A stretch of 64,000 nt of DNA from Bacillota bacterium (GTDB lineage: Bacteria; Bacillota; Sulfobacillia; JAIMAT01). The stretch covers positions 1 through 64,000 of the forward strand of contig JASBVM010000002.1 in assembly GCA_029961055.1 (NCBI GenBank), written 5' to 3'. Both the position numbers and the translations under genes were made by a program. Under the pieces are notes generated by a model. That model made no database searches. It saw only the letters and a list, made by a program, of their open reading frames with translations, and was not told where the DNA came from. Shown piece by piece: positions 10,250 through 52,746 of the stretch (position 1 is its first letter; every line of letters begins with the position of its first letter).

Positions 10250-11130
10250 CGGAGAAAGACCTCCTCCATGCTGGCGTCCTCGCTCCCCGCGAAGCGGCGC
10301 TTCAGCTCCGCCGCCGTGCCCTCGGCGACGACGCGGCCGCGGTCCAGGATGGCGATCCGGTCGCAGAGTCGCTCCGCCTCGTCCATGTCGTGGGTGGTGA
10401 GGAGGATGGTGGTGCCGCTCTCGCGGTGGACCTCGCGCAGGAACTCCTGCACCTCCCGCTTGGAGCGGGGGTCGAGCCCCGTGGTCGGCTCGTCCAGGAG
10501 GAGCAGGTCGGGCGTGGTCAGGAGCGCCCGCGCCACCGCCACCTTCTGCTGCTGGCCGCGGGAGAGCGTCTCCACGCGGGCGCGCAGCTTCGGGCCGGGC
10601 AGGCCGAGCCGGTCGAGGACGGCCGCGCCGCGGCGGCGGGCCTCCTCGGGGTCGAGGGCATAGAGGCGGGCCGCGTAGAGGAGGTTCTCCCAGACGGTGA
10701 GCGACTTGAAGAAGGAAGCCTCCACCGAGACCCGGTTGATCCGCGCCCGGACCGCGGCCGCCTCGTGGACCACGTCGTGCCCGAAGACCTCGAGCCGCCC
10801 CTCGTCGGGGAGGAGGAGCGTGGCCAGGAGCCGGATCAGCGTCGACTTGCCGGACCCGTTGGCGCCGAGGACGCCGTAGATGCTGCCGGCGGGGACGGTC
10901 AGATCGACGCCGCGCAGCGCCTCGACGACGCGGCTCCGCCGCCGGAACCAGCCGAGGAGGCCGCCGGGGGAGTCGCCGCCTTCCTCCGGCTCCTCCTCCA
11001 GCGGTTCCTGGAAGCGCTTGATCACGCCGGTGCAGCGGACGGCCGGGCCTCCTGCCGGCCCCCGGGCGGGAGCAGCCGCCGGTGCCTCCGCCGGCGCGGG
11101 CGACCTGTGCGGCGGTGTGGAGGGGTCCAT
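10237..11130 (-). CDS. ABC exporter ATPase, DrrA/NodI-like
   Basis: ATG 11130 has GAGGAGG seven bases upstream, giving 297 residues. In-frame ATG 11145 and TTG 11148 lie on or before that ribosome site and are unlikely starts. An Ala/Pro-rich N-terminus and an acidic insertion (EPLEEEPEEGGDSPGG) precede the ATPase. Walker A is GANGSGKST, the signature is LSRGQQQKVAVARALL, Walker B is LLLLDEPTTGLDP and the switch His is in LLTTHDMDEAERLCDR. All catalytic residues are present. It powers the permease encoded immediately downstream. Its 5' leader contains the MRLRF peptide gene and two hairpins, suggesting expression is controlled by attenuation rather than only at the promoter. Confidence 0.92.
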   Translation of the reverse strand: MDPSTPPHRSPAPAEAPAAAPARGPAGGPAVRCTGVIKRFQEPLEEEPEEGGDSPGGLLGWFRRRSRVVEALRGVDLTVPAGSIYGVLGANGSGKSTLIRLLATLLLPDEGRLEVFGHDVVHEAAAVRARINRVSVEASFFKSLTVWENLLYAARLYALDPEEARRRGAAVLDRLGLPGPKLRARVETLSRGQQQKVAVARALLTTPDLLLLDEPTTGLDPRSKREVQEFLREVHRESGTTILLTTHDMDEAERLCDRIAILDRGRVVAEGTAAELKRRFAGSEDASMEEVFLRCTS

Positions 11131-11154
11131 GCTTCGCCTCCTCATCAAAGAACG

Positions 11155-11184
11155 GACGGTCCCGGTCAGGAGGCCGGGACCGTC
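11155..11184 (-). terminator. Terminator-like hairpin between leader peptide and ABC ATPase (putative attenuator)
   Basis: On the minus strand GACGGTCCCGG (11184-11174) and CCGGGACCGTC (11165-11155) form a perfect 11-bp stem around an 8-base loop. The sequence after it is CGTTCTTTGATG, a weak T-rich stretch. The loop reads CCTCCTGA on the minus strand and contains the complement of the AGGAGG of the ATPase ribosome site less than 20 bases further on. The element could therefore act on transcription, translation or both. Confidence 0.6.
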
Positions 11185-11206
11185 TGCAAGGCTCGTTCGG
11201 CTGGCC

Positions 11207-11235
11207 GACGGCGGTCCGATCCGCCGTCAGGACCG
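11207..11235 (-). promoter_or_regulatory. Mutually exclusive stems at the end of the leader peptide gene
   Basis: GACGGCGG (11207-11214 on the plus strand) and CCGCCGTC (11221-11228) form a perfect 8-bp stem with a 6-base loop, and the stem contains two bases of the leader stop codon. An alternative stem, CGGTCC (11212-11217) with GGACCG (11230-11235), uses part of the same bases, so only one can form. A ribosome that stalls early in the leader and one that reaches the stop codon would leave different structures free. This is the expected logic of attenuation, but the folding is inferred by eye. Confidence 0.45.
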
Positions 11236-11331
11236 ATGGGAACCGGGGTACCCGACCGTTCGCCTCCGGAGGCCGCAGAAAGGGCGCCGGAGAAGAGCGT
11301 TGGACTGGAGCAGGGAGAACCGGAGACGCAC
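11227..11331 (-). CDS. Leader peptide beginning MRLRF, putative macrolide-responsive attenuator peptide
   Basis: GTG 11331 is preceded by AGGAGGTGA with a five-base spacer, the best ribosome site in this part of the window. It opens a 34-codon frame that ends at TGA 11227. The peptide starts MRLRFSLLQSNALLRRPFCG and ends in GYPGSHRS. MRLR is the minimal sequence known to arrest ribosomes carrying erythromycin, and the ErmD leader contains MRLRFPTLNQ, so five leading residues match. The gene lies between a promoter at 11420-11450 and two hairpins ahead of an ABC exporter, the standard place for an induction leader. The frame, ribosome site and hairpins are seen directly; drug-dependent stalling is inference. 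The transcription start and the lack of other homologs are untested. Confidence 0.7.
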   Translation of the reverse strand: MRLRFSLLQSNALLRRPFCGLRRRTVGYPGSHRS

Positions 11332-11419
11332 GGGGGTCACCTCCTCGCACGCCCGCGGCCCAGGACGGACCGGCTCGGGCGCGAACGGCGCCGGCCGGAA
11401 GGCGGCCGGCAGCGCGCGG

Positions 11420-11450
11420 ATTATACCACGGCGGGCGGCGGTCCCGTCAA
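11420..11450 (-). promoter_or_regulatory. Sigma-A-like promoter for the leader peptide and ABC exporter
   Basis: On the minus strand TTGACG (11450-11445) is followed after 19 bases by TATAAT (11425-11420). TGG directly before the hexamer makes an extended -10 (TGNTATAAT), which can compensate for the long spacer. Transcription would start near 11413, about 80 bases before the leader GTG. Confidence 0.7.
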
Positions 11451-11550: not shown

Positions 11551-11580
11551 TTGACCGTCCCTCCGCCCGCCCAGTATAAT
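11551..11580 (+). promoter_or_regulatory. Sigma-A-like promoter of gltB
   Basis: TTGACC (11551-11556), an 18-base spacer, and a consensus TATAAT (11575-11580). The start of transcription would be near 11587, leaving about 40 bases of leader before the GTG of gltB. This start excludes the upstream in-frame ATG at 11579 as initiator. The stretch 11346-11626 otherwise holds only this and the divergent promoter. Confidence 0.8.
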
Positions 11581-11626
11581 GCGCATCAACACCCCTGGGC
11601 CGCCAGGGTGGAGAGGGGGGCGGGGG

Positions 11627-14600
11627 GTGCCGGAGAGGATCCGAGGGATCGGGGACGAGAGCGATGCCTGTGCGCTGGTGCTGGTGGTGCGGCGGGAGGC
11701 GGCGCCTGCCCGCGACCCGCTGGAGACGGCGCTGGACGCCCTGGAGGCGATGGACCACCGGGCCGGCTGGGTGGGCGAGGGGGCGCTGCGGGAGGGGGAC
11801 GGCGCCGGCCTGATGGTCGACCTGCCCCGGGCCGTCTGGGCCAAGCGCCTGGCCGAGGCGGGCCTGGACCCGGGGCTGGTCCGGCGGGGCGACTTCGCCG
11901 TCGCCCACCTCTTCCTGCCGGGGGGCAGGGCGGCGGTGCACGAGACGGCGGCGCTGCGCGCCCGGGTCCGCGAGCGACTGGCGGTGGAGGGCTTCCGCCT
12001 GCTCGCCGAGGCGCTGGACCAGGTCGACGCCGCCGCGCTGGGTCCCAGGGGGCGCGCCGAGGAGCCGCTGTTCTGGCAGCTGGCCGGGCTTCTTCCCGGC
12101 GAGCGGGCGGGCGGCGAGCAGGGCTGCTGGCACCTGGCCAACCTGCTGGAGCGCCGCTTCGGGGCGGCCGGGCTGGAGGTGGTCTCCTTCAGCACCCGGG
12201 CGGCGGTGTACAAGGTACGGGGCGGTGCCGGGACGCTCCGCTCCTACCACGGGGACCTGCGCGATCCGGCCTTCGCCACCCGCTCGGCACTGGGTCACAG
12301 CCGCTACTCCACCAACACCACCAGCACCTTCGCCCGGGTCCAGCCCTTCTGGCAGCTGGGCCACAACGGGGAGATCAACACCATCGCCCGCCTCCGCGAG
12401 GAGGCGAGGCTGGTCGGCATCCAGCTGGCACGGGACGGGTCGGACTCCCAGGACCTGGACCGCGTCCTGGCGGCGCTCCTCCACCGCCACGGCTTCAGCC
12501 TCTGGGAGGCGGCCGAGCTCCTGCAGCCGCCGCTCCACAACGAGATCTTCACGCTGCCGCCGGCGCTCCAGGACCTCTACGCCTGGCACCGGCAGGCCTG
12601 GGGGCCCTACGCGCAGGGACCGGCCGCGCTCCTGGCGCGGGACGGCGACCGCTTCCTGGCCGCCGTGGACGCCCTGGGTCTCCGGCCGCTCTGGCGGCTG
12701 GAGACCCAGGCTTCGATCGTCTACGCCTCGGAGCCGCGCGTCCTCCCCTTCGCCGACCTCTCCGCCGAGCCGGTCCCGCTGGCGCCGGGGGAGAAGAACG
12801 GGATCCTCCTGGCCCCGGCGGGCGCGCGCTGGCTCGACCAGCCTGCGCTCCGCCGGGTGATCCTGGCCGAGCGCCGCAGGAAGGGCTTCCCCTCCGGTTT
12901 CCGCCGCGCCGCCCTGGAGGCGGGACTCCGCCCCCGGAGCCTCTCCGCCGGCCCGGTCCGCGCGCCGGAGCGGGCGGCGCCGGTCGAGGGCGCGGGAGCG
13001 GCCGCCGCGGCGGGCGACGGCCGGGACGGCCGGGCCGGCGGTCCGCCCAACGACCGGCCGCTGGAGGCGGGTCAGGGGATGCGCCTGCGGGACGCCTGGG
13101 CGCGGCGGCAGCCGCTCCTGGCGGCGCTGGGCTGGGGACCGGAGGACGTCCGCCTGGCGCTGGCCGAGGCGGGCAGCGGCGGTGAGCCGGTCGGGTCGCT
13201 CGGCTACGACGGGCCGCTGGCCGCACTCAGCCGGCAGCGGGTCAACCTGGCCGACTTCTTCCACGAGACGGTGGCGGTGGTGACCAACCCCGCCATCGAC
13301 CGGGAGCGGGAGGTGGAGCACTTCTCCACGCGAACGCTCCTGGGCCGCCGGCCGCGGCTCGACCACCCGGCCGACCGGGAGGCGCTGGAGCTGCGCCTGC
13401 CGCTCCTCCTGGGCGGCGCCGCCGGGGGGCGGAGCTGGCTTCCTCCCGAGCGGGAGGCGGCGGTGGCGGCCGACTTCGGCACCTGCCGGCTGGAGGACCT
13501 GCTGGCGACCTTCGCCCGCCGGGGCGAGCGGCTGCTGCGGCTGGAGCCTTCCTTCGGCGAGAGCGAGGGGCCCCGGCGGGCCGTGGAGCGGCTGGCGACG
13601 GCGGCGGTGGAGGGCGTCCGCGCCGGCGCCGCCGTCCTTCTCCTGGACGACCGCGGGCTCTTCGCCGACGGGGCGCTGCCCCTGGACATCCACCTCGCCC
13701 TGGCGGCGGTGGACCGGGCGCTCCGCCTCGCCGGGCGGCGGCGGGGGACCACGCTCCTGGTCCGCTCCGGCGCGCTGAGGAACCTGCATGACCTGATGCT
13801 GGCCATGGCGCTGGGCGGCGACGCGCTCAACCCCTACCGGCTCTTCGAGGTGGGGGCGCGGACGGCCGCCGACGCGGGCGCCGGCGGGGACGGCGCGGCG
13901 ACGCCCGAGGCGCTGGAGGCGGCGCTGAGGAAGCTCCTGCGCGCCCTGGCGGCCGGCATGGAGAAGGTGCTCTCCACCCTGGGCATCCACGAGCTGCGCG
14001 GGTACGGCCGGCTGATGAGCTCGGTGGGCCTGCCCGAGGAGCTGGTCGCCACCTTCGGCATGCCCGCCTTCGTGCCGGCGCCCGCCGGGGAGGGCTGGGC
14101 GCGGCTCGCCCAGGATGCGCTGGAACGCTACCGGATCGCCCGGGGCGAGGGCGACGACCGGCTCGCCCAGCCCCCGCGCTGGCTCGGCCAGGTCTGGCGG
14201 CTCGGTGGCGATCTGGCGCAGGGGCGGCTGGCACCCGGGGAGTACGAGGAGCGGCTCCAGGAGCTGGCGGAGAGGGAGCCCATCAGCCTCCGCCACGCGC
14301 TGGAGGTGGCGACGCCGCTGGAGGGGGTCGCGCCGGAGGAAGTGGACCTCTCGGTGGGGCCGCACGCGCTTCCTTTCGAGATCAGCTCCATGTCCTTCGG
14401 GAGCCAGGGCGAGACGGCCTACCGGGCCTACGCCGAGGCGGCGGCGCGCCTGAACATCGTCGCCCTCAACGGCGAGGGCGGCGAGATCCCCGATCTGGTC
14501 GGCCGCTACCCGATGAACCGGGGGATCCAGGTGGCCTCGGGCCGCTTCGGCGTCCACCGCGCGCTCCTGGAGGGCGCCTGGATGGCGGAGATCAAGATCG

Positions 14601-16360
14601 GCCAGGGCGCCAAGCCCGGCGAGGGCGGCCACCTCCCCGGCAGGAAGGTCTCCGAGCAGGTGGCGCGGGCGCGCAACGCCCGCCCGGGCGTCGACCTGAT
14701 CTCGCCGTCCAACAACCACGACCTCTACTCCATCGAGGACCTGGCCGAGCTGATCGCCACGCTGAAGCGGGTCCGGCCGGGGCTCCGCGTCGCCGTCAAG
14801 GTGCCGGTGGTGCCCAACATCGGCACCATCGGCGTCGGCATCGCCAAGGCGGGCGCCGACGTGATCACCGTCTCGGGCTTCGACGGCGGCACCGGCGCCG
14901 CCCGCCTCCACGCCATCCGCCGCGCCGGCCTGCCCGTGGAGATCGGCGTCAGCGAGGTCCACCGGGCCCTGGTCGAGGCCGGCCTCCGGCAGCGGGTGGA
15001 GATCTGGGCCGACGGCGGCGTCAAGTCGGCCGAGGACGTCCTCCGCCTGATGCTGCTCGGCGCCAACCGCTGCGGCTTCGGCACCATGGCCATGGTGGCG
15101 GTGGGCTGTACCGCCTGCCGCTCCTGCCAGACCGACACCTGCCACGTGGGCATCGCCACCCAGATCCGCGACCGGGCGGAGGCGCAGGCGCGCGGGCTGC
15201 GACGCTTCGACCCCCTGGACTACGAGGAAGCGGTCCGGCGCCTGGTCCGCTTCTTCACCGCGCTGGGCGAGGCGCTGCGCGCCCGGGTGGCGGAGCTCGG
15301 CGTCCGCCGCGCCCAGGAGCTGGTCGGCCAGAACTGGCGGCTGGTGGCGTCGCGGGAGCGGCAGCGCCTCGGCCTCGGCCACCTGCTCCGGCCGGCGGCC
15401 CCGCCGCCCGCCCCTTGCACCGGCGAGGGCCGCACCCCGCCGGAGAGCCCGGCGGCGGCGGGGTGCGGGACGGCGGCCGGCGCGCCGGGCGCCGGGCAGG
15501 CGGGCACGCGGGTGGTGGCGGCCGCGGGCGGGTCCGGGGCGCCCCTGGAGGAACCGGGGCGGCTCCTCATCCGGCAGGGGGAGGAGCCCGCGCCGGAGGG
15601 GGAGAGCGCCGTCGCGCCGCGTGACCTGCTCGAGGCCTTCGCGCCGCGCACCCGGGTGGAGGTGAGCGACGGCATCGCCGCCCAGGGCTTCGCCGCCTTC
15701 AGCCTCCGCGGCGAAAGCTGGCACGCCCGCGGCGGAGCCCAGGACGGCGCCGCCCGGACCGCCCTGGGCGGGCGCGTCGTCGTCCTCAAGCGGCCCAACG
15801 GTCGCGGCCGCTGGGTGGGGGGCCACGTGGGGAAGGGCTTCGCCTACGGTGCGCAACGCGGGCTCTTCCTGGTCCAGGGGAGCGCCGACGCCCGCTTCGG
15901 CATCCGCCTCTCCGGCGCCGACCTGGTCCTGGGCGGCGAGCCGGCGGGGCCGATCCGGGACGAGCTGGGCTGCATCGCCGCCCGCGCCCAGATCAAGGGC
16001 TTCGGCTTCGAATACATGACCGCCGGGCGCGCGGTGGTCCTGGGCGACCCGGGGCCGTGGCTCTGCTCGGGGATGACCGGCGGCGTCGTCTACCTCCGGC
16101 ACGAGCCCGCCTGGGGGCTGGACGAGGCGGCGCTCCGGCGGCGCATCGCCAAGGGGGCGCGCGTCCGCCTCCGGCCGCTGGGCGAGCAGGGGCTGTCCGA
16201 CGTGCGGGAGCTGCTGGGCGAGTACGCCCACGAGCTGGAGGCGTCGGGTCAGGAGGAGGAGGCCGCCCGGGTGCGGGGGCTGGCCGCCGCCGCGGGGGAG
16301 CACTTCCTGGCGCTTCTCCCGGAGGTGGAGCAGGTCGATCCGGCGATCTCCACGGAGTAG
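11627..16360 (+). CDS. gltB: Glutamate synthase large subunit
   Basis: GTG 11627 follows GGAGAGGGGGG and gives 1577 residues, close to the usual 1500. It makes glutamate from glutamine and 2-oxoglutarate. The N-terminal amidotransferase has its nucleophile in ESDAC (Cys15), normally exposed by processing, with HSRYSTNTTSTF near residue 223 and GHNGEINT. The FMN synthase domain starts near 914 (LPFEISSMSFGSQGE) and contains EIKIGQGAKPGEGGHLPG and SGFDGGTGAARL. The 3Fe-4S ligands are in GCTACRSCQTDTC near 1160. A Gly-rich C-terminal beta-helix begins near 1331. An Ala/Gly-rich insert at about 1255-1320 (PPAPCTGEGRTPPES onward) separates the last two domains. No gltD lies beside it, so electrons must come from a small subunit elsewhere or from ferredoxin. 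Confidence 0.95.
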   Translation: MPERIRGIGDESDACALVLVVRREAAPARDPLETALDALEAMDHRAGWVGEGALREGDGAGLMVDLPRAVWAKRLAEAGLDPGLVRRGDFAVAHLFLPGGRAAVHETAALRARVRERLAVEGFRLLAEALDQVDAAALGPRGRAEEPLFWQLAGLLPGERAGGEQGCWHLANLLERRFGAAGLEVVSFSTRAAVYKVRGGAGTLRSYHGDLRDPAFATRSALGHSRYSTNTTSTFARVQPFWQLGHNGEINTIARLREEARLVGIQLARDGSDSQDLDRVLAALLHRHGFSLWEAAELLQPPLHNEIFTLPPALQDLYAWHRQAWGPYAQGPAALLARDGDRFLAAVDALGLRPLWRLETQASIVYASEPRVLPFADLSAEPVPLAPGEKNGILLAPAGARWLDQPALRRVILAERRRKGFPSGFRRAALEAGLRPRSLSAGPVRAPERAAPVEGAGAAAAAGDGRDGRAGGPPNDRPLEAGQGMRLRDAWARRQPLLAALGWGPEDVRLALAEAGSGGEPVGSLGYDGPLAALSRQRVNLADFFHETVAVVTNPAIDREREVEHFSTRTLLGRRPRLDHPADREALELRLPLLLGGAAGGRSWLPPEREAAVAADFGTCRLEDLLATFARRGERLLRLEPSFGESEGPRRAVERLATAAVEGVRAGAAVLLLDDRGLFADGALPLDIHLALAAVDRALRLAGRRRGTTLLVRSGALRNLHDLMLAMALGGDALNPYRLFEVGARTAADAGAGGDGAATPEALEAALRKLLRALAAGMEKVLSTLGIHELRGYGRLMSSVGLPEELVATFGMPAFVPAPAGEGWARLAQDALERYRIARGEGDDRLAQPPRWLGQVWRLGGDLAQGRLAPGEYEERLQELAEREPISLRHALEVATPLEGVAPEEVDLSVGPHALPFEISSMSFGSQGETAYRAYAEAAARLNIVALNGEGGEIPDLVGRYPMNRGIQVASGRFGVHRALLEGAWMAEIKIGQGAKPGEGGHLPGRKVSEQVARARNARPGVDLISPSNNHDLYSIEDLAELIATLKRVRPGLRVAVKVPVVPNIGTIGVGIAKAGADVITVSGFDGGTGAARLHAIRRAGLPVEIGVSEVHRALVEAGLRQRVEIWADGGVKSAEDVLRLMLLGANRCGFGTMAMVAVGCTACRSCQTDTCHVGIATQIRDRAEAQARGLRRFDPLDYEEAVRRLVRFFTALGEALRARVAELGVRRAQELVGQNWRLVASRERQRLGLGHLLRPAAPPPAPCTGEGRTPPESPAAAGCGTAAGAPGAGQAGTRVVAAAGGSGAPLEEPGRLLIRQGEEPAPEGESAVAPRDLLEAFAPRTRVEVSDGIAAQGFAAFSLRGESWHARGGAQDGAARTALGGRVVVLKRPNGRGRWVGGHVGKGFAYGAQRGLFLVQGSADARFGIRLSGADLVLGGEPAGPIRDELGCIAARAQIKGFGFEYMTAGRAVVLGDPGPWLCSGMTGGVVYLRHEPAWGLDEAALRRRIAKGARVRLRPLGEQGLSDVRELLGEYAHELEASGQEEEAARVRGLAAAAGEHFLALLPEVEQVDPAISTE

Positions 16361-52353: not shown

Positions 52354-52720
52354 TGGCGAGTTGCCCAGACGGTCGCGCGCGCGGCTTCGCGCGTGAGGAA
52401 AGTCCGAGCAGCACAGGGCAGGGTGCCGGGTAACACCCGGTGAGGGCGACCTCAAGGAAAGTGCCACAGAGAGAAGACCGCCGACGCGGCGGGGACGGAT
52501 CGCCGGATCCGCCGCGGGCAAGGGTGAAAGGGTGCGGCAAGAGCGCACCGGGGCTTGGGCGACCGGCCCGTCATGGCAAACCCCACCCGCTGCAAGGCCG
52601 AATAGGGGAGGGATGATGCGGCCCGCGGACCTCCCGGGTTGGCCGCTCGAGGCGCCGGGCGACCGGCGCCCCAGATGGATGACCGTCCGCGACAGAACTC
52701 GGCTTACGGGCAACTCGCCC
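52354..52720 (+). ncRNA. rnpB: RNase P RNA, type A
   Basis: GAGGAAAGTCCGAGC near 52391 and GACAGAACTCGGCTTACGGG near 52691 are the universal P4 strands. P1 is a perfect 12-bp helix between GGCGAGTTGCCC (52355-52366) and GGGCAACTCGCC (52708-52719), which fixes both ends. AGTGCCACAGAGAG and GGCAAACCCCACC, the tRNA 3'-CCA-binding L15 loop, are also present. The length of about 366 bases and the P-helix order fit the ancestral A type, not the Bacillus B type. It processes the 5' ends of pre-tRNAs. Adjacent reading frames on both strands are shadows. Confidence 0.97.
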
Positions 52721-52746
52721 GCCTCACGTCCTGCGGGGCGGTCCGG

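Follow-up and report, generated by a model that had tools for sequence, protein, structure and literature searches.

A probable leader-peptide attenuator upstream of a DrrAB-like ABC-2 exporter and the recurrence of its layout before related exporters

With erythromycin, and above all with telithromycin, nascent peptides that carry Arg-X-Arg, RLR or +x+ motifs arrest ribosomes where the context allows it (PMC8298421). Attenuators driven by such leaders, of the RLR or RYR type, govern hflXr in Listeria monocytogenes (rli80) (PMC6310831) and tlrB (yxjB) in Bacillus subtilis (PMC6851288). Lincomycin, erythromycin and chloramphenicol all induce the bmrCD genes, whose basal level shifts with rare codons (PMC4191407).

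A candidate attenuator and its exporter genes

The window analysed here is a stretch of 64,000 nucleotides from a Bacillota bacterium. An initial annotation of this DNA had described a promoter, a 34-codon ORF led by a Shine-Dalgarno sequence (SD) and encoding MRLRF at its start, two hairpins of which one is terminator-like, and a DrrA-like ATPase gene; all of these were found on the minus strand, as part of the following set of features.

11450-11420, minus strand: sigma-A type promoter with an extended -10 (TTGACG, 19-nt spacer, TGGTATAAT)
11345-11337, minus strand: perfect SD of the leader ORF, AGGAGGTGA
11331-11227, minus strand: leader ORF with a GTG start, 34 aa, MRLRFSLLQSNALLRRPFCGLRRRTVGYPGSHRS, with R2-L3-R4 as candidate arrest motif
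11257-11247, minus strand: antiterminator 5' strand predicted by folding, leader codons 25-29, GGTCGGGTACC
11228-11207, minus strand: hairpin across the leader stop codon from folding, GACGGCGG-ATCGGA-CCGCCGTC
11184-11155, minus strand: intrinsic-terminator-like hairpin, 11 bp, with a weak U-tract (CGTTCTTTG)
11130-10237, minus strand: DrrA-like ABC-2 exporter ATPase, 297 aa, ATG at 11130 (Pfam ABC_tran, 1.8e-32)
10249-9464, minus strand: ABC-2 permease, whose start overlaps the stop of the ATPase gene (Pfam ABC2_membrane, 1.2e-15)

Inspection of the sequence placed the TTGACG box at 11450-11445 and TGG-TATAAT with its TATAAT at 11425-11420; from this position, transcription of the leader is expected to start at about 11413. 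The short ORF, for which translation is predicted, sits with its perfect SD between promoter and terminator, as in ribosome-mediated attenuators. The terminator-like hairpin precedes the first structural gene, and its U-tract is poor here and good in one sister species. The leader from 11131 to 11412 folded better than all of 200 shuffles (z -3.4). No Rfam family matched the window leader or any of 20 related loci at gathering score, and a known riboswitch or other structured RNA was ruled out on this basis.

The ATPase scored 247.8 bits on the NCBIfam model drrA (TIGR01188), below the cut-off of 312.45; membership of the DrrA daunorubicin-resistance subfamily was rejected on this score, and the protein is referred to as DrrA-like only. 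Searches of PDB and PADLOC returned only generic ABC ATPase relatives for the ATPase and no match for the permease. Elsewhere in the window, a divergent glutamate synthase-like ORF occupies 11579-16360 on the plus strand, just after a near-consensus sigma-A promoter (TTGACC-18-TATAAT, 11/12) at 11551-11580 (+), and a bacterial RNase P class A RNA (273.6 bits) lies at 52357-52721 on the plus strand.

The MRLR start in the genome and in sister species

Sites with an SD followed by MRLR numbered four in the whole genome (three distinct sequences, the window locus included), while a reversed control pattern gave three. The five-residue MRLRF match alone therefore carries little weight, and MRLR was discarded as a rare signature, its frequency being at the level of chance. 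Another of the sites opened an ordinary-looking 113-aa ORF beginning MRLRTSDMRERD, and the remaining two were identical copies of one GC-rich 54-aa ORF. Identical pairs of matches lay on separate contigs (G000 C17:9949 and C49:33714; C11:48201 and C25:2230), which hints at duplicated segments or assembly redundancy.

In both sister species the ABC genes are still preceded by the promoter segment, an SD, an ORF with a GTG start and the terminator, though the leader sequences (MRVRVPSAVFIIQLRLRSPRIRRRTAGRPSRA and MPCRRPGSGSIFILRLRSRRSRGEAVGRPRRPWRRIR) diverge. The promoter segment TGGTATAATCCGC showed no difference in either species; their SDs (GGAGGTGG and GGGGGTGG) resemble AGGAGGTGA; the terminator (GCGGTCCCGGCC...GGGACCG) is kept in both, with TTTTT in one of them; and the stop-codon hairpin was also seen in their sequences. 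The expectation that homologous loci would conserve the MRLR start was not borne out, as one sister leader begins MRVR and the other MPCRR, the latter without an N-terminal +x+, while the ABC genes are kept. An N-terminal +x+ was thus present in two of the three genus members, and RLR occurred at codons 15-17 in both sisters. The arrangement is nevertheless more than chance, because both sister species, and many more distant orthologous loci, preserve the promoter, the SD and start, the terminator and the place of the ORF.

Leaders upstream of orthologous exporters

An ATPase ortholog at E<=1e-60 was present in 53 of 154 genomes of the class, and orthologs were also found in other Bacillota, in Chloroflexota and in further groups; a permease homolog lay immediately downstream of the ATPase gene in 129 of 131 orthologous loci. 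Among 146 distinct ortholog upstream regions, 76 from several bacterial groups satisfied a strict rule that asked for a short ORF with its SD and a terminator after it, and about half did not, some of the latter showing a leader by eye (L125, MAKKIRLTVAGLFAALVGSPPRA; L120, MTDFQKIRIFGGSGAPAPRPPNP). The proposal of a leader peptide with an attenuator is thus well supported, the leader-terminator layout recurring upstream of orthologs. In the open literature, which was the scope of the search, we found no description of a leader for this exporter family.

The N-termini of these leaders were compared with those of control short SD-led ORFs of equal Arg plus Lys content (0.153 versus 0.157). In residues 2-9, [RK]x[RK] was present in 18 of 42 non-redundant leaders and in 132 of 1,033 controls (12.8%; p=2.7e-6), and [RK][LIVM][RK] in 11 of 42 and 19 of 1,033 (1.8%; p=2.6e-9), these leaders and their start codons having been picked by rule, in a few cases by hand, with incomplete independence among related ones. 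Both enrichments exceeded those in within-peptide shuffles. The N-termini of ordinary long ORFs carried +x+ in 8.4% of cases, and a smaller, previous leader set had it in 14 of 32 compared with 3.5 expected from shuffling. The strong enrichment of +x+ as an arrest motif close to leader N-termini lends indirect support to a link with macrolides or ketolides. In one group (L158, L168, L159 and L167) the motif remains Lys-Val-Arg in spite of synonymous changes in its Lys and Val codons.

At the other end of the peptides, the smaller set showed an excess of proline, often as RP or PP, three to four residues ahead of the stop, which could stem from coding of the antiterminator strand, or mark a pausing site close to the stop or an additional site of arrest. 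Proline-rich ends include SPPPS (L117), SRPVPV (L153) and ARPDP (L158). The C-terminal GCGCGGCCTGACCCT of the L158 group (GCG CGG CCT GAC CCT) is near-invariant in nucleotides, and its codons are complementary to AGGGTCGTGGGCCGC in the terminator 5' arm. Leaders from Ktedonobacteria (L041, L048, L049, L054, L058, L061, L067, L079 and L097) share a SVPISxGxPP-like end, in whose codons GTGCCCA is the complement of a TGGGCAC within the 5' arm of the terminator. Two successive terminator-like hairpins were observed between leader ORF and ABC gene in many orthologs (L004, L007, L012, L036, L069, L158, L159 and L167).

When the whole leader was folded at equilibrium under ribosome masks, the terminator formed in every case, so that no switch could be seen, and folding truncated at the terminator 5' arm was used instead. 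With a ribosome on codon 3 of the window leader, the predicted optimum paired codons 25-29 with the terminator 5' arm over 10 bp. Taken by itself, this antiterminator is a predicted optimum without significance: complementarity between the uORF and the terminator arm at this locus was no better than in shuffles (p=0.35), and in truncated folding the position of the ribosome shifted pairing of the arm merely from 0.64 to 0.59. In both sister species, pairing with the terminator arm was possible at codons 24-31, with a predicted optimum that differs; with the ribosome on codon 16, none of the three genus members had pairing of codons 25-29 as its optimum. Across the family, the terminator 5' arm was predicted to be paired upstream more with a ribosome on +x+ than with one on the stop codon, with an increase at 37 loci and a decrease at 11, the mean difference being 0.23 versus 0.02-0.11 across 12 shuffle sets. 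The test of uORF and terminator-arm complementarity gave p<=0.05 in 11 of 61 loci, the window locus not being among them.

Interpretation and comparison with known leaders

The locus is probably a ribosome-mediated transcription attenuator of a DrrAB-like ABC-2 exporter that responds to exit-tunnel drugs of the macrolide or ketolide kind; here we infer the stalling, the drug class, the induction and the substrate of the exporter. Without drug, a ribosome reading the 34-codon leader to its stop would mask codons 25-29, which hold the antiterminator strand; the terminator hairpin would form, and transcription would end ahead of the ATPase gene. A macrolide- or ketolide-type drug in the exit tunnel would halt translation early, on the R2-L3-R4 motif with Leu3 positioned in the P site, leaving codons 25-29 free to pair with the terminator 5' arm, and polymerase would enter the exporter genes. 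Judged by sequence, the +x+ of the window leader (R2-L3-R4) is at a site that leaves the switch region free, as in RLR-class arrest leaders.

It is rather less likely, although far from negligible, that the leader senses a general slowdown of translation, caused by many 50S inhibitors or by slow Arg codons, in the way of bmrB-bmrCD and with no macrolide-specific arrest at MRLR. The response of bmrCD to lincomycin, erythromycin and chloramphenicol and the effect of rare codons on its basal level (PMC4191407) are consistent with such a sensor, as are the AGG-CGA and several Arg codons of the window leader and the variation of the exact leader N-terminus among relatives. However, general slowdown would not predict the family-wide enrichment of [RK][LIVM][RK] near the N-terminus.

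Two further explanations dispense with the ribosome as a regulator. The small ORF could be a product of chance or stand alone, with a hairpin that merely ends an upstream transcript and no regulation of the exporter; chance SD+MRLR sites do occur in the genome, the U-tract is weak and equilibrium folding gave no switch. This is improbable, since the upstream glutamate synthase-like gene is divergent (plus strand), so that there is no upstream transcript for the hairpin to stop, and since the set of promoter, leader and terminator is seen again ahead of orthologs. The strong structure (z -3.4) would also suit a ligand-binding riboswitch or a protein-binding leader in which the ORF is incidental, but this is very improbable given the lack of Rfam matches for the window leader and the 20 related loci, and the structured part differs between families while the positions of SD, ORF and terminator persist.

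A broader proposal, extending attenuation by drug-stalled ribosomes to the orthologs, is more tentative, its chances falling somewhat short of even: leaders that carry [RK]-[LIV]-R as arrest motif at the N-terminus and, at the C-terminus, an RP- or PP-coding stretch doubling as antiterminator strand may form a widespread, apparently undescribed family through which exit-tunnel drugs induce a single uncharacterised family of ABC-2 exporters in several bacterial groups, many of them uncultured. If so, drug-inducible exporters of environmental bacteria would be predictable in large numbers from sequence alone, exit-tunnel antibiotics would be implied as common signals for these bacteria, many natural +x+ variants would be available for the study of arrest context, and an unnamed exporter family would gain a hypothesis of function.

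Compared with described systems, the window leader resembles the ErmD/ErmK leader (MTHSMRLRFPTLNQ) and other RLR-class macrolide leaders in having Arg-Leu-Arg near the N-terminus of a short peptide, and shares the five residues MRLRF with ErmD/ErmK. Those leaders control rRNA methyltransferase genes, whereas the window leader precedes an ABC-2 exporter and, unlike ErmD/ErmK, opens directly with MRLR, a start that neither sister species shares. Membership of the ErmD/ErmK leaders was rejected, as the MRLRF core is not conserved in the sisters and the downstream genes encode an ABC exporter rather than an Erm protein. BmrCD is an ABC exporter of a different type from that in the window. The bmrB-bmrCD system of B. 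subtilis is similar in that a leader peptide controls an ABC multidrug exporter by transcription attenuation, but it has a 53-aa leader, a terminator within the ORF and general sensing of 50S inhibitors (PMC4191407). The hflXr/rli80 attenuator shares transcription attenuation, a short RLR-containing ORF and alternative terminator and antiterminator structures, and differs in its 14-aa leader and in the downstream gene, which encodes a ribosome-splitting factor (PMC6310831). For tlrB (yxjB), the likeness lies in macrolide-dependent stalling at R/K-X-R/K and in transcription attenuation; there, however, the motif is at the C-terminus of a 9-aa leader of a methyltransferase gene, translation attenuation operates too and no antiterminator was found (PMC6851288). 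The window locus combines features of the known RLR leaders and of exporter attenuators, and is best filed with them.
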